Assembly: GCF_035978755.1 (NCBI RefSeq)
Contig: NZ_CP108414.1
Location: forward strand, 496,001-560,000
Source: Streptomyces sp. NBC_01298
GTDB lineage: Bacteria; Actinomycetota; Actinomycetes; Streptomycetales; Streptomycetaceae
Direction: 5' to 3'
DNA length: 64,000 nucleotides
Numbering within the stretch: the stretch's first letter is position 1; each line of letters begins with the position of its first letter. Below the pieces are notes generated by a model. It was not told the DNA's origin and ran no database searches. It saw only the letters and a list, made by a program, of their open reading frames with translations. Below, one piece after another: positions 1,235 through 50,838 of the stretch. The position numbers and the translations under genes are program-made.

Positions 1235-1409
1235 GGCCTGTCGTCAAACTCCCGTCGTCGCCCGAAGGGCGGCCGCGCGGCGTCCGGTGCGTGCTCTCGG
1301 CGTGCCGGGCGGAAAGCCGCGTACTGGACGTACCCGGCCTTCCGCCCGGTGCGGCGAGAGCGCGTGCCGGACGCCGTGCGGCAGGCGGGAGTTTGACGAC
1401 AGGCCCTAG
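1231..1409. mobile_element. MITE-like palindromic element with CTAG ends
   Basis: A 24-base arm at 1231-1254 is the exact reverse complement of 1386-1409. Both ends carry CTAG, and the element proper begins GGGCCTGTCGTCAAAC. The interior is itself an imperfect palindrome, so nearly the whole 178 bases could fold into one hairpin. It has no coding capacity. CTAG or TA at both borders fits a TA target duplication of the IS630 type, or a CTAG target of the IS5 type; the choice is inference. It separates the histidine kinase from the convergent SnoaL-like gene and could also end transcription. A related, shorter copy lies at 24200-24279. Confidence 0.7.
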
Positions 1410-9443: not shown

Positions 9444-10164
9444 GGAAGCCCGCCACCATGACCAGCCCGGTGGCGAGGTGGGCGTCCTCCTGTGCCTCCG
9501 GGAGCATGGTGTCGGCGATCATCGCGAGGATGGCGCCGGCCGCGAAGGCCGTGACCGCGGCGAGGGCCTGCGGCGGGGCGTCACCGAGCAGGGCGTTGCC
9601 GAGCAGCGCGGCCGCGCCGCTGAGGAGGGCGATCCCGCCCCAGAGCCCGAAGACATAACCCCGGCCGCGGCCCGCGGTGCGCATGCCGGCGGCGCTGGCC
9701 ATGCCTTCGGGGACGTTGCTGATGAAGACGGCGCCGATCGTGGCCAGTCCGACGGATCCGCCGCCGAGCAGGCTCGCGCCGATCACCACGGACTCGGGCA
9801 CCCCGTCGAGGACGGCTCCCATCGCGATGGCGCTGCCCGAGCCGGGCTGCTGCTCCTCGGAGGGCTGGTGGCCGCCCGAGCGTTTGCGGTGCCGGCCGCC
9901 GCGCCGGGCCAGCAGCGCGTTGCCCGCGCTGTAGACGGCCGCGCCCGCGGCCGTGCCGAGCGCGGTGGGGAGCAGGCCGCCCGTCTCGTGGGCCTCGGCG
10001 ATCAGGTCGTAGGAGACCGCCGCGATGAGCACGCCGGAGCCGAACGCCATGATCAGGGCGATCAGCCGGCGCGGCACCGCGAAGAAGGTGCCGAGGGCCG
10101 CGCCCGCCAGCAGGGCGCTGCCGGCGAGGAGCCCCCAGGCACCGGCCACGAGTGCGTCGTACAC
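9415..10164 (-). CDS. ZIP-family metal transporter
   Basis: About seven or eight hydrophobic segments and the ZIP signatures GAVLDGVPESVVIGAS and ISNVPEGMAS identify a divalent metal permease, probably for zinc, iron or manganese import at the cytoplasmic membrane. A charged loop with RHRKRSGGH and SEEQQ lies between helices 3 and 4, where ZIP proteins often carry metal-binding residues. The GTG start at 10164 has AAGGAAG upstream. The leader contains six 9-base repeats (10183-10236). No Zur-like operator is evident. Confidence 0.9.
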   Translation of the reverse strand: MYDALVAGAWGLLAGSALLAGAALGTFFAVPRRLIALIMAFGSGVLIAAVSYDLIAEAHETGGLLPTALGTAAGAAVYSAGNALLARRGGRHRKRSGGHQPSEEQQPGSGSAIAMGAVLDGVPESVVIGASLLGGGSVGLATIGAVFISNVPEGMASAAGMRTAGRGRGYVFGLWGGIALLSGAAALLGNALLGDAPPQALAAVTAFAAGAILAMIADTMLPEAQEDAHLATGLVMVAGFLTALGLGEL

Positions 10165-19925: not shown

Positions 19926-20600
19926 GTGGGCGGCCAGGTGGAAGACGAGACCTCGGAGCGGCGGATCGGTGCGGGCATCCGCAGACGGCGCAGGGCTCTG
20001 GACCTCACCCTCGCCGAGGTGGCCGCGCGCAGCGGGCTGTCCTCGCCCTTCCTCAGCCAGATCGAGAACGACCGGGCCCGCCCCAGCATGCGTTCGCTCC
20101 AGCGGGTGGCCGACGCCCTGGACACCACGGCCGTGCAGCTGCTGGCCGCCGGGGAGACCCCGCGCCGGGTGGACATCGTGCGGGCCGGCGCCGATCCCGG
20201 GCTCGAATCCGGGGTCGGTTCCGGGCAAGGATCCGGGGTCGGTTCCGGGCAAGGATCCGGGGTCGGTTCCGGGCAAGGTTCCGGGGTCGGTTCCGGGACG
20301 GATGCGACGGCCCGGGTCCGTCCGCTCGTACGCGGCCAGCACCAGATGCACGCCCTGGAGTTCACCGGGGACCACGACGCCGAGCGCGCGTTCCGGCACC
20401 GCAACGACGAGCTGATGTACGTGGCCGACGGCGCCGCCGAGGTCGAGGCCGACGGGCGGATCCACCGCCTGGGCCGTGGCGACACGCTGTACCTCACCGG
20501 CGGGGTGGAGCACCGCTGGCGGGCGGTGGAGGCGGGCACGCGGGTGCTGCTCGTCGCCGTCGCCGATCACGTCGAGGCCGTCGTGGACCCCCTCGGCTGA
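19926..20600 (+). CDS. XRE-family regulator with C-terminal cupin
   Basis: The N-terminal third is a Cro/C1 helix-turn-helix (LTLAEVAARSGLSSPFLSQI). The C-terminal part is a cupin sensor domain (FRHRNDELMYVADGAAEVEA ... YLTGGVEHRWRA) that would bind a small effector. Between them, about residues 95-125 are a Gly-Ser-rich linker encoded by a 24-base minisatellite (GVGSGQGS units). GTG 19926 is chosen for GGGGA upstream; GTG 19938 is an alternative. It is divergent from the ASST-permease operon and is probably its regulator. The stop codon lies in a 16-base direct repeat (20594-20609 and 20619-20634). Confidence 0.88.
   Translation: MGGQVEDETSERRIGAGIRRRRRALDLTLAEVAARSGLSSPFLSQIENDRARPSMRSLQRVADALDTTAVQLLAAGETPRRVDIVRAGADPGLESGVGSGQGSGVGSGQGSGVGSGQGSGVGSGTDATARVRPLVRGQHQMHALEFTGDHDAERAFRHRNDELMYVADGAAEVEADGRIHRLGRGDTLYLTGGVEHRWRAVEAGTRVLLVAVADHVEAVVDPLG
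20208..20297 (+). repeat. 24-bp minisatellite in regulator linker
   Basis: Nearly four copies of a 24-base unit, differing by single bases, encode Gly-Val-Gly-Ser-Gly-Gln-Gly-Ser between the DNA-binding and cupin domains. Copy-number change would lengthen or shorten the linker without breaking the frame. Confidence 0.88.
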
Positions 20601-22660: not shown

Positions 22661-25600
22661 ATGGGGGACCTCTTGGAGGATCCGGACCGCGCGAGCGGGA
22701 CAGCGGCTGCCTTCCCCGCCCAGTTGAGAAGGCTGCGCGTGCAGCGCGGCCTGTCGCTGGGCGAGCTCGCCCGCCGGACGCACTACAGCAAGGGCTACCT
22801 CAGCAAGATCGAGACCGGCGCGAAGCCGGTCACCCTCGACGTGGCCCGCAGTTGCGACCGGGCCCTCGGGGCCGAGGGCGAACTCCTGGGGCTGGTACCG
22901 GAACTCGCCCCCGACATCGACGGGTCCGGGCCGTCCCCGACAGGATCGCGAGCCGGGGCGGCCGGACCGGCCGCCCCGCCCCACCAGCGCGGTCCACAGG
23001 CGGACGGCGCGTGCCCCTACCGCGGCCTGTCGGCGTTCACCCCGCAGGACGCCCGGTGGTTCTTCGGCCGGGAGCGGGCCACGGCCGCCCTCGTCGAGCG
23101 GGTCCACGACCGGCTCGGCCAGGGCCCGTTGCTCCTCGTCGCCCGGTCGGGCGCGGGCAAGTCCTCGCTGCTCAGCGCGGGTCTGGTGCCGACACTGCGG
23201 AGCGGCGGTTTCCCGGCGGCGGGGGCCGACGGATGGCCGATCGTCCGGTTCACCCCCACCGCGCACCCGCTGCGGGAACTGCTCGACGCCACCGCCAAGG
23301 TGGTGGGGGGCGATCTCGACGTCAACCCGGGGCAGCTGAGGGCCCGCCCGGAACTGCTGCTCGAATCCGTCCACCGGCTGACGTACGGCGCCGGCACCCT
23401 CCCCGGCGCGGACGGGCGCAGGCTCCCGACCGTGCGGCCGGTGCTGCTGGTCGACCAGTTCGAAGAGCTGTTCACCCTCTGCTCCGACGAGGAGGAGCGC
23501 CTGGCCTTCGTACGGGTGCTCCTCGCCCTGGCCTCGCCGCCGGGCGTTTCCCCGGCCTCTCCCCCGGTTCCTCCCGCGGCCGCGCCGCCCGGGTCCGACC
23601 CCGCCGTCGTCGTGCTCGGCGTGCGGGCCGACTTCTCCGGGGAGTGCCTGGACCTTCCGGAGCTGGCCGCCGTGTTCAGCGACGGGCTGTTCGTCCTGCC
23701 CCCGATGTCCGTGGCGGAGCTGCGCGAAGCGATCACGCGCCCGGCGGAGCTCGCCGGGCTCGTCCTGGAGCCGGGGCTGGTCCCGCTGCTGCTGCGGGAC
23801 GCGGACGTACGGGACCCCGTACGGGAACCGGGCGCCGGGGATCCCGGTGCCGCGGACCCCGCGGCGCGCCCCGGCAGCGGTCCGGAGGCCTGGCCCGGGG
23901 AGGCTCCCTCCAGCGCCCTGCCCCTGATGTCCCACGCGCTGATGACCACCTGGCAGCGGCGCGAGGGAGCCACGCTGACCGTCGCGGGATACGAGTACGC
24001 CGGCGGCCTCCAGGGCGCCGTGGCCCGCAGCGCCGAGCAGGTGTTCGCCAAGCTGGACCCGGCCGAGCAGCGGATGGCCCGGCGGCTCCTCGTCCGGCTG
24101 GTGCACATCGCCGACGGTACGGGGCCGACCCGGCGCCGGATGGGCCGCACCGCCCTGCTGGAGGGGCAGGCCGACACCGTGCGGGCCGCGGCCGCCCTGG
24201 GGCCTGTCGCCGAACCCCCGGCTGCCCCGCGACGCCTGGCACGCCCTTCGGGCGACGACGGGAGTTTGACGAGAGTCCTCGACGCCTTCGTCCGGGCCCG
24301 GCTGATCAGCGCGGACAGCGACACCGTCGAGATCACCCACGAGGCCCTGCTGCACGCCTGGCCCCGGCTGCGCGGCTGGATCCGCGCCGACCGGGCCGGG
24401 CTGCTCGTCCACCAGCACCTGGCCCAGGCCGCCGACGAATGGGTGCGCGAGGCCCGCGACCCGTCCGTGCTCTACCGCGGCAGCCGCCTCGCCACCGCCC
24501 GCACCTGGGCCGACGAGCTGGACGGCCGCAGCCGGCTGGGCCCCCGGGAGGCGGCCTTCCTCGACGCGAGCCGGGCCGCGGAGGAGGCCCGCCACCGTCA
24601 GGAGCGGCTCCGGGTCCGCCTGCACCAGCGGATGCTGGCCACGCTCGTCGTCCTGCTCCTGCTGGCGCTGACCGCCGGCGGGGTGGCGTACCAGCAGCGT
24701 GCGGGGGCGCTCGCCCAGGAGCGGACCGCCCGTTCCCAGGCGCTGGCGGCCCGGTCGCTGTCGCTGTCCGCCGGCCAGCCCGAGGCCTCCATGCTGCTCG
24801 CCGGCGAGGCCTACCGGGCCGAAGCGACGCCCGAGGCGCGCGGCGCCCTGCTCAGTACCCAGTCCCAGCCCTTCCTGGCACGGCTCGACGGACACGGCGG
24901 GCCGGTCAACGCGGTGGCCTTCGCGCCGGACGGCCGACTGCTGGCGACGGCCGGCTCCGACGGGAAGGTCCTGCTGAGGCGGGTGGCCGACCGGAGCACC
25001 GTGGCCGCCTTCACCGCGCCCGGCCGGGTGCGCGCGGTCGCCTTCAGCCCCGACGGGCGGACCCTGGCCGCCGGTTCCACCGACGGACCGGTCCGGCTCT
25101 GGCCCCTCGGAGCGGACGGCGGAGCGGGCGGCGGCTCCGTGTCGGTGCTGCCCCCGGGCACGGCGGGCGCCCGGGCGGTGGCCTTCGCCCCCGACGGGGG
25201 CACCCTCGCCGTCGCCACCGCCGACGGGACCGTCCAGTTGCGGGACACGGCCGGGGAACACGGCGTGCGCGCCGTCCTGACCGGGCACACCGCGCGGGTC
25301 AACACCCTGGCGTACGCCCCGGACGGCCGGAGCCTCGTATCGGCCGGCGCCGACGGGACCGTACGGCTGTGGGACACGCGGCGGGCGGAGCCGGCCGGTG
25401 TTCTGGAGGGGCACGCCGGGGAGGTGCTGGGCGCGGCCTTCGCACCGGACGGCCGTACGGTCGCCACCGGCGGGGTCGACCGTACGGTGCGGCTGTGGGA
25501 CGTCGGCGGGCGGCGCGAGGCCGCGACCCTGGCCGGGCACAGCGACGACGTCAACACCGTGGCCTACACGCCGGACGGCACCACCGTCATCAGCGGCGGC

Positions 25601-26740
25601 GGCGACGGCACCACCCGGCTGTGGGACGTCCGCGGCGGCCGGCTCACGGCCACGCTGGCCGGCCACACCGACTACGTGCTCGCCGTCTCCGTGGATCCGG
25701 CGGGATCGGTGCTCGCCACCGCCGCGTTCGACCAGTCCGTCGTGCTCTGGGACCTGCGGGGTCCGGTGCTGACGGCGCGTCCGTTCACCGAGGTGTGGCA
25801 CGCCGCGTACAGCCCCGACGGGAAGCTCCTGGCGACCGCGGACGCGGACCACACCGTGCTGCTGTGGGACGTGCCCGAACGGCGGGTTCTGGCCACTTTC
25901 TCGGGGCACGCCGAGACGGTGTTCTCGGTGGCCTTCGCCCCCGACGGACGCACCCTCGCCTCCGCCGGAGCCGACGGCACCGTACGCCTCTGGGACACCG
26001 CCGCCCGCACTCCCCTCGCCACCCTCACCGGACACACCGGGACCGTGTTCTCGGTGGCCTTCGCCCCCGACGGACGCACCCTCGCCTCCGCCGGAGCCGA
26101 CGGCACCGTACGCCTCTGGGACACCGCCGCGCGCAGTCCGCTCGCCACCCTCACCGGGCACACCGACTTCGCCAACGACGTGGTCTTCAGCCCCGACGGA
26201 CGGACCCTGGCCAGCGCCGGGGACGATCTGACCGTCCGGTTGTGGGACGTGGCCGGGCGCCGCCCGCTCGCCGCGCTCAGCGGTCACGCGGGAGCGGTGC
26301 GGGCCGTCGCCTTCTCCCCCGACGGGCGGACCCTGGCGAGCAGCGGCAACGACGGCACCGTACGGCTGTGGGACGCGGAGCAGCGGCGCGTCACGGCGGT
26401 GCTGAACGGGCACACGGGATCGGCACGGGCCGTCGCCTTCTCCCCCGACGGGCGGACCCTGGCGAGCAGCGGCAACGACCGTACGGTGCGGCTGTGGGAC
26501 GTCCCCGGACACCGGCTGCTGGCCGCGCTGTCGGGTCACACCAACGCGGTGTGGGGGGTCGTCTTCTCCCCGGACGGGCGGACCCTGGCGAGCAGCAGCA
26601 ACGACGGCACCGTACGGCTGTGGGACCCGGACCCCGGCGCCCGGCTGGCGGCCGTCTGCCGGACGGTGGGCCGCCTGGGACCGCGGGAGCGGCAGGCTCC
26701 GGCGCCCGGTCCGCCCGCCGGGGCGGCGCGCCGCTGCTAG
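22661..26740 (+). CDS. HTH-nSTAND ATPase-WD40 protein
   Basis: This 1359-residue multidomain protein starts with an XRE helix-turn-helix (LSLGELARRTHYSKGYLSKI, about residues 25-75). A P-loop NTPase of the nSTAND1 type follows, with Walker A SGAGKSS near 164 and Walker B VLLVDQFEELFTL near 260. The conserved EITHEALLHAWPRLRGW segment lies near 560, then a transmembrane helix (MLATLVVLLLLALTAGGVAY) near 655-676. The C-terminal half has 14 WD40 repeats, enough for two seven-bladed propellers. Such proteins are thought to act as ATP-driven signalling or scaffold switches; the ligand is unknown. Two oddities: residues about 513-540 are encoded by a mobile-element relic, and several WD repeats are almost identical in DNA. 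The ribosome binding site before ATG 22661 is weak. Confidence 0.9.
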   Translation: MGDLLEDPDRASGTAAAFPAQLRRLRVQRGLSLGELARRTHYSKGYLSKIETGAKPVTLDVARSCDRALGAEGELLGLVPELAPDIDGSGPSPTGSRAGAAGPAAPPHQRGPQADGACPYRGLSAFTPQDARWFFGRERATAALVERVHDRLGQGPLLLVARSGAGKSSLLSAGLVPTLRSGGFPAAGADGWPIVRFTPTAHPLRELLDATAKVVGGDLDVNPGQLRARPELLLESVHRLTYGAGTLPGADGRRLPTVRPVLLVDQFEELFTLCSDEEERLAFVRVLLALASPPGVSPASPPVPPAAAPPGSDPAVVVLGVRADFSGECLDLPELAAVFSDGLFVLPPMSVAELREAITRPAELAGLVLEPGLVPLLLRDADVRDPVREPGAGDPGAADPAARPGSGPEAWPGEAPSSALPLMSHALMTTWQRREGATLTVAGYEYAGGLQGAVARSAEQVFAKLDPAEQRMARRLLVRLVHIADGTGPTRRRMGRTALLEGQADTVRAAAALGPVAEPPAAPRRLARPSGDDGSLTRVLDAFVRARLISADSDTVEITHEALLHAWPRLRGWIRADRAGLLVHQHLAQAADEWVREARDPSVLYRGSRLATARTWADELDGRSRLGPREAAFLDASRAAEEARHRQERLRVRLHQRMLATLVVLLLLALTAGGVAYQQRAGALAQERTARSQALAARSLSLSAGQPEASMLLAGEAYRAEATPEARGALLSTQSQPFLARLDGHGGPVNAVAFAPDGRLLATAGSDGKVLLRRVADRSTVAAFTAPGRVRAVAFSPDGRTLAAGSTDGPVRLWPLGADGGAGGGSVSVLPPGTAGARAVAFAPDGGTLAVATADGTVQLRDTAGEHGVRAVLTGHTARVNTLAYAPDGRSLVSAGADGTVRLWDTRRAEPAGVLEGHAGEVLGAAFAPDGRTVATGGVDRTVRLWDVGGRREAATLAGHSDDVNTVAYTPDGTTVISGGGDGTTRLWDVRGGRLTATLAGHTDYVLAVSVDPAGSVLATAAFDQSVVLWDLRGPVLTARPFTEVWHAAYSPDGKLLATADADHTVLLWDVPERRVLATFSGHAETVFSVAFAPDGRTLASAGADGTVRLWDTAARTPLATLTGHTGTVFSVAFAPDGRTLASAGADGTVRLWDTAARSPLATLTGHTDFANDVVFSPDGRTLASAGDDLTVRLWDVAGRRPLAALSGHAGAVRAVAFSPDGRTLASSGNDGTVRLWDAEQRRVTAVLNGHTGSARAVAFSPDGRTLASSGNDRTVRLWDVPGHRLLAALSGHTNAVWGVVFSPDGRTLASSSNDGTVRLWDPDPGARLAAVCRTVGRLGPRERQAPAPGPPAGAARRC
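24200..24279. mobile_element. Shortened palindromic element embedded in the nSTAND gene
   Basis: Both ends of the element at 1231-1409 recur here. Bases 24242-24272 are the exact reverse complement of 1241-1271 (31 of 31), and the left part from 24200 aligns without gaps to the other end of that element over about 47 bases with roughly ten mismatches. The middle is missing. The relic is about 80-81 bases, 27 codons with a small target duplication, and keeps the reading frame. It adds a Pro/Ala/Arg-rich peptide (GPVAEPPAAPRRLARPSGDD) just before the conserved VLDAFVRARLI segment. Confidence 0.8.
25919..26130 (+). repeat. Duplicated WD40 unit (126-bp period)
   Basis: Bases 25919-26004 are identical to 26045-26130, 126 bases (42 codons) apart, and encode neighbouring WD repeats. 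A second identical pair, 26300-26353 and 26426-26479, has the same period, with a close third copy near 26552. Synonymous sites have not diverged, so these blades duplicated recently or are being homogenised. Confidence 0.88.
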
Positions 26741-43387: not shown

Positions 43388-43611
43388 AGCCGGGCGGCCG
43401 AGGCCGTCCCTTTCTGCCCACGGGCCGGCCCTGCACCGGGCCCGGCCCTGTAGCACCTCTGTAGCACCCCTGGACCACCCCCGGGCGCCACCCGGCGTAC
43501 GCCCGGGGAACGTTCGCCGCCCGCCGCGCCAACGCGCCTGGCTTCGGCCGCCGTCCGGCATGGGTAGGCTTCCCGCGACACAGTGTGCGGGGCGGGGTTC
43601 GGGGTGGGGTC

Positions 43612-47468: not shown

Positions 47469-47583
47469 CACGGCGGACCTGCTTTCCGGATCGGAGGGCT
47501 GCACCCAGGCCGTCCGGCCCGGCCCGGGCGGGCTCTTCCGGCCCCTGCCGGGCGGGCAGGATCCCGGATCCGAAAGGGACGGC

Positions 47584-48648
47584 CTAAGCGGGCGGGCTCA
47601 GGGTGTACCGGACCGTGCCTTCCCCGGAGCCCGCCCCCGTGAAACCGGCACGTCGCAGCACCCCGTGCGCGGGGTCGTCGGGATGGTCGGCCTCGGACGC
47701 CAGCAGGGTGCAGCCCGGCTGCCCGAAGGCCCAGCCGGCGAGGGCCTTCGCCGCTTCGGTGGCGTAGCCGTTGCCGCGCGCCGGCGGGAGGATGTCGTAG
47801 CCCAGCTCGGCGCGGCCCTCCGCGTCCGGGGCCCCGTGGAAGCCCATGGCGCCGATCGCCAGCCGGTCGCTCGCCCGGATGAGGGCGTACGGGCCCCAGC
47901 CCGGCCGGTAGGTCCCTTCCTCGCGCGCCTCGGCCGTCCTGCCCGAGGCGTACCGCGTGCCCTCGCCGGGCCCGTCTCCGGCCCAGACGAAGCCTCCGGC
48001 GCCGCCCGCGTACAGGTCGGCCGCCGCGTTCGGGGTGATCTCGCAGAGCACCAGGCGCTCGGCCCGGACGGGGTCGGCGTACCAGCGCCAGACCGTCAGG
48101 CGGGCCCGGCCGGGGAGTTCGCCCCGGCCCGTGGCCCAGAGCAGGGTGAGCCAGGGCTCGTGGCCGCGCGGGAGGTGCGGGAAGAGCCGGTCCAGGACCC
48201 GTTCGGCCAGTGCGGGGTCCGGCTCCCAGTCGTGGACGCCGAGTCCGCCGAGGATGTCGTGGGTGTGCAGCAGGGTCTCGACGACGCCCATCGCCGCGAA
48301 GCCGTCCGCGCCCGCGGCCCCGGCCGGGTGCCACGCGCGGGCACCGGGTCCGGCGAGTGCCACGGCGGCCGACAGGAACCCGCCGGAGGCCTCGATCATG
48401 TCGACCAGGCCGGCCGGGCCGGTGCCCTCCTCGGCCCGGATCTCCAGCGGGACGTACGCGGCGGTGGCGCGGACCGTGAGCTGGGCGGCGTACGCGGTGA
48501 AGTCCTCGGTCACGTGGACGGCGGTGTCGCGGCAGCTCCACTCCAGGCCGGCGGCCGGAACGTCCCAGTCCAGGTGCGCCACCTCCCGCAGCGCCCGGGT
48601 GGTGAGCGACACCGCTGTATCGATGTCCTTGGAATTCATGATCGTCAT
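47584..48648 (-). CDS. DinB-like/maleylpyruvate isomerase-like domain fused to GNAT
   Basis: The N-terminal 200 residues resemble the DinB-like/mycothiol-dependent maleylpyruvate isomerase N-domain: LEWSCRDTAVHVTEDFTAYA, and a helix bundle with HTHDILGGLG. Residues from about 215 form a GNAT acetyltransferase (ASDRLAIGAMGFHGAPDAEG, ARGNGYATEAAKALAGWAFG). The fusion of a metal/thiol-type bundle with an acetyltransferase is unusual. It may join acetylation to mycothiol-related chemistry, but no reaction can be stated. ATG 48648 is used; ATG 48639 is possible. Confidence 0.78.
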   Translation of the reverse strand: MTIMNSKDIDTAVSLTTRALREVAHLDWDVPAAGLEWSCRDTAVHVTEDFTAYAAQLTVRATAAYVPLEIRAEEGTGPAGLVDMIEASGGFLSAAVALAGPGARAWHPAGAAGADGFAAMGVVETLLHTHDILGGLGVHDWEPDPALAERVLDRLFPHLPRGHEPWLTLLWATGRGELPGRARLTVWRWYADPVRAERLVLCEITPNAAADLYAGGAGGFVWAGDGPGEGTRYASGRTAEAREEGTYRPGWGPYALIRASDRLAIGAMGFHGAPDAEGRAELGYDILPPARGNGYATEAAKALAGWAFGQPGCTLLASEADHPDDPAHGVLRRAGFTGAGSGEGTVRYTLSPPA

Positions 48649-48812: not shown

Positions 48813-49616
48813 GTGGAGATTTCGACGAGGGACGTCTTCGGGGCGCCGTGCTGGGTGAGCCTGATGGCACGGGACCTCGGCGCGGCGCAGCGGTTCTACG
48901 GTGCGGTCGCGGGCTGGCGGTTCCGGACCGCGCGGCTCGGCGAGGCCTTCGCCGTCGCCGAGCTGGACGGGATGCCGGTGGCCGGGATCGGGGCGCTGGC
49001 CGGAGACCTCGCGGTGGCCGTGGCCTGGACCCCGTACTTCGCGGTCGACGACGCCGACGTGGCGGTGGACCGGATCCGCGAGCGCAGCGGCACGGTCGCG
49101 GTCGGCCCGGTCTCCTTCGAGTCGGGGGGCCGCGGGGCGCTGGCGGCGGACCGCGACGGGGCGGTGTTCGGGATCTGGGAGGGCCAGGTCTCCTCGGGCT
49201 GGCGGGTCGGTTCGGGACAGGCGCCGGCCTGGCTGGAGCTGCGCACCCGGGACGCCTTCGAGTCGGCGATCTTCTACGGGGAGGTGCTGGAGTGGGCCAC
49301 CGGCCGCGCCGGATGCTGCGAGGTCGCCTACGAGGAGGATCGGGTCGTGCTGCGCCAGGACGGGGAGCCGGTGGCGCGCCTCGACAGCGGTCCCGTGGAG
49401 CCGGGTTCGTACAGTCCGTACACCCGGCCGCGCTGGCACGTGCACTTCCGGGTGCCCGCGCTGGAGCCGGCGGTGGAGGCGGCCGTCGCACTGGGCGGCC
49501 GCACGGTGTCCGAGCCCGCCTCGAGCGCGACCGACCGATGGGTGTCCCTGCGCGATCCCGACGGGGCGCTCTTCACCCTCACCGAGTCCCGGACGGACGG
49601 CGGGGCCGAGGGGTAG
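48813..49616 (+). CDS. Two-domain VOC (glyoxalase-like) protein
   Basis: This 267-residue protein has two vicinal oxygen chelate modules: DVFGAPCWVSLMARDLGAAQRFYGAVAGW at the start, and APAWLELRTRDAFESAIFYGEVLEW as the second. Residues VAELDGMPVAG and WVSLRDPDGALFTLTES are family-typical strands. Members include glyoxalases, dioxygenases and antibiotic-binding proteins; the function here is unknown. GTG 48813 has GGAG nine bases upstream. The +1 frame just beyond the stop opens into a long Gly-X-Y repeat (49630-49809). Confidence 0.83.
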   Translation: MEISTRDVFGAPCWVSLMARDLGAAQRFYGAVAGWRFRTARLGEAFAVAELDGMPVAGIGALAGDLAVAVAWTPYFAVDDADVAVDRIRERSGTVAVGPVSFESGGRGALAADRDGAVFGIWEGQVSSGWRVGSGQAPAWLELRTRDAFESAIFYGEVLEWATGRAGCCEVAYEEDRVVLRQDGEPVARLDSGPVEPGSYSPYTRPRWHVHFRVPALEPAVEAAVALGGRTVSEPASSATDRWVSLRDPDGALFTLTESRTDGGAEG

Positions 49617-49629
49617 GCGGGGTCCGGCG

Positions 49630-49809
49630 GGTGGGCCTGGGCCGGCGGGTGCGTCGGGGCCCGCAGGTGCGTCGGGTCCCGCAGGTGCGTCGGGGCCGAT
49701 GGGTGGGCCTGGGCCGGCGGGCGGGCCGGGGCCGGCGGGTGCGTCGGGTCCGGCAGGTGAGTCGGTGCCGATGGGTGGGCCTGGGCAGGCGGGTGGGCCG
49801 GGGCTACGG
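49630..49809. repeat. 10 x 18-bp minisatellite with collagen-like coding pattern
   Basis: Ten consecutive 18-base units, such as ggtgcgtcggggcccgca, differ by a few bases. Read in the +1 frame relative to the preceding VOC gene, they encode Gly-Pro-Ala-Gly-Ala-Ser-type triplets without stops. The last unit contains the stop codon (49804-49806) of the minus-strand HhH-PHP gene. Confidence 0.9.
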
Positions 49810-50838
49810 CAGTCGGCGGGTGCGGGTCCAGTCGATGAGCTCGGCCGCGGACCGGGTGTTGACGACCCGGTCGGCCGTCACCCCGCATTCCAGGGCGCGT
49901 TCGCAGCCGAGGGTCTGCCAGTCGAGCTGTCCCGGGGCGTGCGCGTCGGTGTCGATCGCGAAGAGGGTGCCCGCGGCGACCGCGAGCCGCAGCAGTCGGC
50001 GCGGCGGGTCCAGCCGCTCCGGCCGGCTGTTGATCTCCACGGCCGCTCCCGACTCGGCGCAGGCCGCGAAGACGGCCTCGGCGTCGAACTGCGACTCCGG
50101 CCGTGTCTTGCCCGTCACCAGCCGCCCGGTGCAGTGGCCGAGGACGTCGAGGTGGGGGTTGCGTACGGCGGCGACCATCCGCCGGGTCATCGCGGGGGCG
50201 TCCATCCGGAGCTTGGAGTGGACGGAGCCGACGACGAGGTCCACCTCGGCCAGGAGTTCCGGCTCCTGGTCCAGCGAACCGTCGTCGAGGATGTCGCACT
50301 CGATGCCGGTGAGCAGCCGGAACGGGGCCCAGGTCGCGTTGAGTTCGGCGACCGTGCGCAGCTGTTCCCGCAGCCGGTCCGGGGAGAGTCCCCGGGCGAC
50401 GGTCAGGCGCGGCGAGTGGTCGGTGAGCACCGCCCAGTCGTGCCCGAGGGCGGCGGCGGCCCGGGCCATCGCCTCGATGGGGCTGCCTCCGTCCGACCAG
50501 TCGGAGTGCATGTGGCAGTCGCCGCGCAGGGCGGCGCGCAGGGCGAGGGCCTCGGGGCTGGGCGGCGGGCCCACGGGGTGGGCCGCGGCCTTCTCCTCGA
50601 GCCCCCGCAAGTAGGCGGGGATGGTTCCGCCGAGGGCTTCTCGGACGACCTGGGCGGTTTTCGGGCCGATGCCCTTGACCGCTTCGAGGGTGCCCGCGCG
50701 GACCCGGTCGGCCAGCTCGTCCTCGCCCATCCGGCCGACGGCGGCGGCCGCCGTGCGGAAGGCCTGGACCCGGTAGGTCGGCTCCTGAGCGCGTTCCAGC
50801 AGGAACGCGATCCGGTCCAGCGCGGCCACCGGGTCCAT
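49804..50838 (-). CDS. HhH-PHP domain protein, PolX-derived
   Basis: This 344-residue protein has an N-terminal helix-hairpin-helix region (LEAVKGIGPKTAQVVREAL, about residues 49-67), as in DNA polymerase X, and a C-terminal PHP phosphoesterase domain. Metal-binding motifs are GDCHMHSDWSDG near 106, the HAPG and TDHS segments, and NPHLDVLGHC. Bacterial PolX carries both modules around a polymerase core; that core is missing here, so this is probably a DNA-end or nucleotide phosphoesterase rather than a polymerase. It could serve DNA repair, but activity is inferred from domains. Confidence 0.85.
   Translation of the reverse strand: MDPVAALDRIAFLLERAQEPTYRVQAFRTAAAAVGRMGEDELADRVRAGTLEAVKGIGPKTAQVVREALGGTIPAYLRGLEEKAAAHPVGPPPSPEALALRAALRGDCHMHSDWSDGGSPIEAMARAAAALGHDWAVLTDHSPRLTVARGLSPDRLREQLRTVAELNATWAPFRLLTGIECDILDDGSLDQEPELLAEVDLVVGSVHSKLRMDAPAMTRRMVAAVRNPHLDVLGHCTGRLVTGKTRPESQFDAEAVFAACAESGAAVEINSRPERLDPPRRLLRLAVAAGTLFAIDTDAHAPGQLDWQTLGCERALECGVTADRVVNTRSAAELIDWTRTRRLP

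Follow-up and report, generated by a model that had tools for sequence, protein, structure and literature searches.

The gene at 22661..26740 (forward strand) of the window, the whole 64,000-nucleotide stretch of DNA analysed here, encodes a 1359-residue HTH-nSTAND1-WD40 protein according to the ORF list and Pfam, where the HTH label rests on the names and Pfam accessions of homologues. With a probability of about 80%, this ATPase gene was entered by a non-autonomous palindromic MITE that is now a tolerated, decaying and internally deleted relic. The insertion amounts to 81 bp net (24200..24280, + strand), is in frame and adds 27 residues as codons 514-540, in agreement with the 80-81 bases of the preliminary description. 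The interval comes from alignment to insert-free orthologues; bases at its boundary are shared, and a placement a few bases earlier is equally valid. Query positions 299 and 378 map to bases 494260 and 494258 of G090, an orthologue that lacks the insert (a 3-bp overlap), and CCCTCGACGCC runs uninterrupted through three close orthologues (DNA identity 94-96% downstream of the site and 89-94% upstream), so that relatives present the empty site. The overlap of the two orthologue alignments, together with the sequence, places CCT at the left boundary (24196..24198, +) and again at the right (24277..24279, +), and these triplets are possibly a decayed target-site duplication. No clear duplication survives for the in-gene copy, which has CTGG on its left and CTCG on its right, and the MITE consensus predicts a right end longer by one base.

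The inserted sequence matches a second element in the window, at 1231-1409. Bases 24242-24272 are the exact reverse complement of 1241-1271, and the 31 of 31 identities noted earlier held on recounting; at 95% identity the match can be lengthened to 37 nt (1235-1271 against 24242-24278). From 24197 on, the left part of the insertion aligns without gaps to the other end of the 1231-1409 element, as had also been described, at 40 of 52 bases, and the next seven registers give just 13-21 of 52. The 14-mer CGGGAGTTTGACGA occurs three times in the window with up to two mismatches, each time within the two elements, against 0.34 expected occurrences, and one of 100 shuffles reached three. Against a consensus built from 24 full-length MITE copies, the insert shows the two ends joined and the middle gone. 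Its left remnant (24197..24244, +) holds a terminal repeat and arm and matches the end at 1386-1409 in reverse complement, its right remnant (24242..24278, +) holds an arm and terminal repeat, and the deletion junction lies at 24239..24246 (+), where the two parts share CGC and about 90 bp of the MITE middle are missing. Read from this alignment, the 81 bp are an internally deleted MITE copy.

The 1231-1409 element is a full-length copy of the same MITE, with CTAG on both sides. Its insertion point coincides with the TAG stop that ends the upstream gene, whose reading frame was judged by eye, and the TAG site is empty in the orthologues G090 and G273. Its terminal inverted repeats (TIRs) are at 1235..1254 (+, GGCCTGTCGTCAAACTCCCG) and 1386..1405 (-). 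Full-length members of the family measure 171-173 bp, with the 20-bp TIR GGCCTGTCGTCAAACTCCCG and usually CTAG flanks. The own genome (9.7 Mb, 5 contigs) has nine two-ended copies besides the one in the gene, 1231-1409 included; five are 165-179 bp long and four are internally deleted (65, 67, 78 and 117 bp), and all nine have CTAG on both sides. There are additional one-ended or diverged matches, one of them between CCGG sequences. The exact TIR pattern is present in 43 of 246 genomes of the genus, and the MITE peptide at E <= 1e-8 in 151 of 392, a count that also takes in related repeat types; both figures include the own genome. The element is short, with TIRs and no room for a transposase, it is dispersed in many copies, and it shows CTAG flanks and empty sites (1231-1409). 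These features point to a genus-wide, non-autonomous MITE family, and with both element ends found in related genomes the relic of a mobile palindrome proposed in the preliminary description is borne out. Neither of the two refuting outcomes named there occurred, since nearly all homologues examined lack the 27 residues and the repeat recurs in related genomes.

One of the closest known systems would be that of IS-derived MITEs with a CTAG or TA target (IS5- or IS630-type). The family shares with these its TIRs, CTAG flanks, lack of a transposase and internal-deletion derivatives, and differs in that the loci examined yielded no parent bearing its TIR: the own genome has no suitably spaced TIR pair for an autonomous parent, and no longer element lies between such TIRs in 18 loci or in 13 further loci. 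Two candidate parents were set aside on ends read by eye. The IS630-type transposase by copy L006 apparently has its own ends (TGACCTGAGTC...), and the IS5-like transposase by L010 has other ends (GGCCGTTTCC...).

The L006 locus has at 376-1501 an IS630-type transposase frame with no internal stops, located at a CTAG. On one side of this transposase is an end of the second repeat type and on the other a 117-bp MITE of the family, an arrangement of nested insertions. The own-genome loci L012, L015 and L020, and L299, have the same core with other terminal repeats (GGCCGTCTCTTTCGGATC..., GGGCGTGTTGCGAAAGTCCCG), and these too lie at CTAG sites. The MITE core seems to occur with several kinds of ends. 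Of the 24 full-length copies with CTAG ends, 15 have an open frame, against 77% of dinucleotide shuffles; the frame is not kept open beyond chance in this set.

In the host protein, the Pfam nSTAND1 match covers residues 119-601 and WD40 repeats are also present. The insert (514-540) falls within the nSTAND1 match, and the placement between the ATPase module and a later segment given in the preliminary description has to be corrected. An AlphaFold model of residues 110-700 (50 sequences, mean pLDDT 88.8) shows one helix over the 18 residues preceding the insert, and then coil over inserted residues 1-19, most of it in blocks of pLDDT 56. The last eight inserted residues and DAFVR form a 13-residue helix, followed by two short strands. 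The model of the insert-free L080 protein has a helix of equal length, with the insertion point past its eighth residue and a five-residue turn (EGQAD) directly before it. On these models, the insert would interrupt a helix and its end would rebuild the helix start. With the insertion point inside the helix and not in the turn, tolerance is less obvious than it would be for a loop. The conserved THEALL segment, which we take to be MHD-like, follows the insert closely, and the region of the insert is presumably the winged-helix part of a STAND ATPase. Foldseek matches of the model include ORC/Cdc6, clamp loaders, Avs4 and CED-4, with whole-model TM-scores of at most 0.34 among the matches listed.

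The extra residues are rare among the homologues examined. Among the best 120 of 2266 homologous proteins, 115 show no length change at the site; the other five are one of -1, one of +1, P0031 (+6), P0093 (+27) and P0001 (+58). MITE sequence stands at the site in one of these 120, P0001 from Streptomyces sp. 5.8, as a full-length copy of 58 residues that is 88% identical to the full-length MITE translation and has the site and orientation of the window copy. P0093 has, in the interval of window residues 500-540, an unrelated 27-residue expansion rich in Gly, Thr and Ser just before the same helix segment, which shows that the region tolerates length changes. Besides the own gene, 136 homologous loci were fetched as DNA, some genes twice, and 134 of them have nothing at the site, one has two residues and one is partial. 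Three locus searches, one of which gave 30 loci with 73 genomes matched, fetched no further insert-bearing genome beyond the own, and when the MITE peptide was run against proteins 768-2445 aa long, P0001 was the sole match. The closest homologue found, P0002, is 97% identical and lacks the insert.

The preferred reading, a MITE insertion followed by decay, would begin with the MITE entering at a CTCG site, in codons that specify the first half of a helix in the presumed winged-helix domain. Because no stop interrupts the inner MITE frame and the net length is divisible by three, the ORF would have stayed open. The middle of the copy may then have been lost, again in frame, or the copy may have arrived already shortened; a later in-frame deletion is suggested by P0001, where the copy at this site is full-length. 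The protein is probably made and working, with the insert as a neutral, tolerated 27-residue extension that would be mostly a floppy loop, its last residues rebuilding the helix start, and that would drift with no visible constraint on its amino acids.

Two histories are compatible with this reading. At about even odds, one old insertion is common to the window lineage and P0001, by descent or local recombination, and was lost or never fixed elsewhere. The identical codon and orientation in the two genes favour it, as does the right junction, which is one base short in the window and by implication in P0001 (judged from the protein), and the insert is probably more changed than the split from P0002 would suggest. 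However, in a tree of 26 proteins with the insert columns left out, the window protein groups with P0002 (100/99) and P0001 falls outside the five-row clade of the window (100/97), in an unresolved larger group. P0002, P0008, P0003 and P0005 are nearer to the window protein and none has the insert, so that a single old insertion would need several exact losses or a transfer, and the two inserts have no common derived change relative to the MITE consensus (by eye). Two independent insertions of one MITE subfamily at the same site have a little less than an even chance. They would suit the tree, in which the window protein and P0001 are not sisters, the subfamily arm of both, which is also exact in G080 and G101 (for P0001 judged from the protein), and the existence of short derivatives as separate copies. 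Against them, site and orientation coincide exactly, and the site is CTCG and not the usual CTAG. With two size stages of the insert at one site, and with a 97% identical homologue that lacks it, the case forms a system for testing tolerance of transposon-derived peptides and any function gained from them.

The insert differs from the MITE consensus by seven base changes, six nonsynonymous and one synonymous, one of the seven being in the presumed target codon. Random placement of the same changes most frequently gives five nonsynonymous, and six or more in 27% of trials; with seven changes the test has little power. Within that weak test there is no sign of purifying selection on the inserted residues. 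For the host gene as a whole, comparison with five orthologous loci gives dN/dS of 0.26-0.31; L080 and L161 among these loci are one and the same gene.

The preliminary description had proposed exaptation, a mobile palindrome recruited as protein sequence in a signalling ATPase. On such a reading the MITE-derived Pro/Ala/Arg peptide would tune the ATPase, for example its winged-helix latch, and this is improbable. The frame is kept both in the full-length insertion of P0001 and in the internally deleted one of the window, the modelled helix restarts at unchanged length from the last eight inserted residues, the conserved THEALL segment is close behind, and dN/dS over the whole gene is 0.26-0.31, all of which speaks in its favour. 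Selection on the downstream domains alone explains the kept frame. The insert is absent from the nearest homologue, its changes stand at six nonsynonymous to one synonymous, it is mostly low-confidence coil, and P0031 and P0093 have other length changes close by; the claim is unsupported on these grounds. Chance similarity, or a conserved family loop that merely looks palindromic, has a negligible probability: many weak repeats occur in GC-rich sequence and the RNA hairpin of the insert is no stronger than in shuffles, but the 31/31 identity, the dispersed genomic family and the insert-free homologues refute it.

New here is the occurrence of the same MITE frame in 13 further Streptomyces proteins. 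They were matched at E <= 1 with the P0001 insert as query among proteins of 176-560 aa; all are from Streptomyces and each aligns in the same MITE frame, a uniformity that is partly a product of the design, with protein queries in one MITE frame. P0131 (E 0.0017), P0132 (0.020) and P0133 (0.023) are weak matches. The MITE peptide splits an AA_kinase domain in P0122 (Pfam halves 2-162 and 166-234), DNA_alkylation in P0123, from the same strain as P0001 (1-140 and 139-212), a LysR substrate domain in P0130 (4-62 and 68-208) and YhhN in the weakly matched P0133 (2-76 and 82-182). In these four the domain halves match in order on either side of the peptide, and in P0132, also weakly matched, an MFS match spans it. 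The MITE is N-terminal in the near-identical relatives P0124 and P0125, at the end of the partial record P0127, near the C-terminus in P0129 and between two domains in P0126; P0121, P0128 and P0131 match no Pfam family at E <= 0.001. Several of the 13 have other terminal repeats around the same core (by eye). For annotation, the peptide that these unrelated Streptomyces proteins have in common is MITE sequence and not a domain.

Genomic copies were examined at 74 loci, representing 69 places, 40 of the loci being chosen for long open frames. Long-frame candidates, which have no stop and 60 or more open codons to either side, make up 23 of the 69 places. When both flank pieces (up to 420 residues each) were run against Pfam, domains were found on both sides in one, on one side in seven and on neither in 15, where an absent match does not prove a location outside a gene. 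The sole both-sides case is L299, a modular polyketide synthase with an SpnB Rossmann domain before the MITE and a KR domain after it. In-frame insertion was thus found in several unrelated protein genes (kinase, DNA_alkylation, LysR, YhhN, MFS, PKS and nSTAND1), and a frequent location inside genes was not seen in the 23 candidates from 69 places. To judge from these copies, insertions in genes look like a recurrent but small minority. In L299 (G369) the MITE is on the reverse strand at about 9765-9914, in frame within a PKS open frame of 7792 codons, with CTAG as its left and CTGG as its right flank.

Rickettsia, with its small genomes, is the best-known case of in-frame palindromes in protein genes; the genomes here are the large, GC-rich ones of Streptomyces. 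The Rickettsia palindromic elements (RPE) were reportedly described by Ogata et al. in 2000 and 2002. A review presents them as palindromes of about 150 bp that occur within a single genus, in frame in protein genes unrelated to one another, and deems a similar mechanism in other prokaryotes conceivable (PMC10969869). The Streptomyces MITE is alike in being a palindrome that lies in frame within several unrelated protein genes of its genus, and unlike in its sequence, its high-GC host and its in-gene copies, which are apparently a small minority (1/23). For intragenic ERIC/RU elements of enterobacteria, MITE-like sequences with open frames fused to or inside ORFs are described (Delihas 2007, PMC2759123), and for the QMITEs of Coxiella in-frame inserts in hypothetical proteins and, in enhC, an extension at the C-terminus (PMC5896051). 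Both resemble the present case in having a MITE-like element with an open frame within an ORF; unlike the Coxiella cases described there, the Streptomyces MITE splits conserved Pfam domains internally. A search, mostly outside subscription literature, found no report of in-frame MITEs in Streptomyces proteins. It is conceivable, if rather doubtful, that a Streptomyces-wide MITE family with a common core and several TIR types repeatedly enters conserved proteins in one frame, in a manner like that of the Rickettsia elements, leaving working proteins with about 27-60 extra residues, and is afterwards shortened in frame. Two stages of this process at one site would then be seen in the window gene and P0001.

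The RNA hairpin of the insert was considered as a regulator and rejected at z -1.05 against shuffles, and Rfam has no match in the window at gathering scores. Other repeats in the window include an inverted repeat with GGCCGTCCCTTTC-like sequence at 43388-43414 and 47572-47598, which resembles the ends of the second repeat type. There are also 24-bp tandem repeats at 20185-20304 (CCGGGGTCGGTTCCGGGCAAGGAT-like) and a tandem array with an 18-bp step at 49565-49834.
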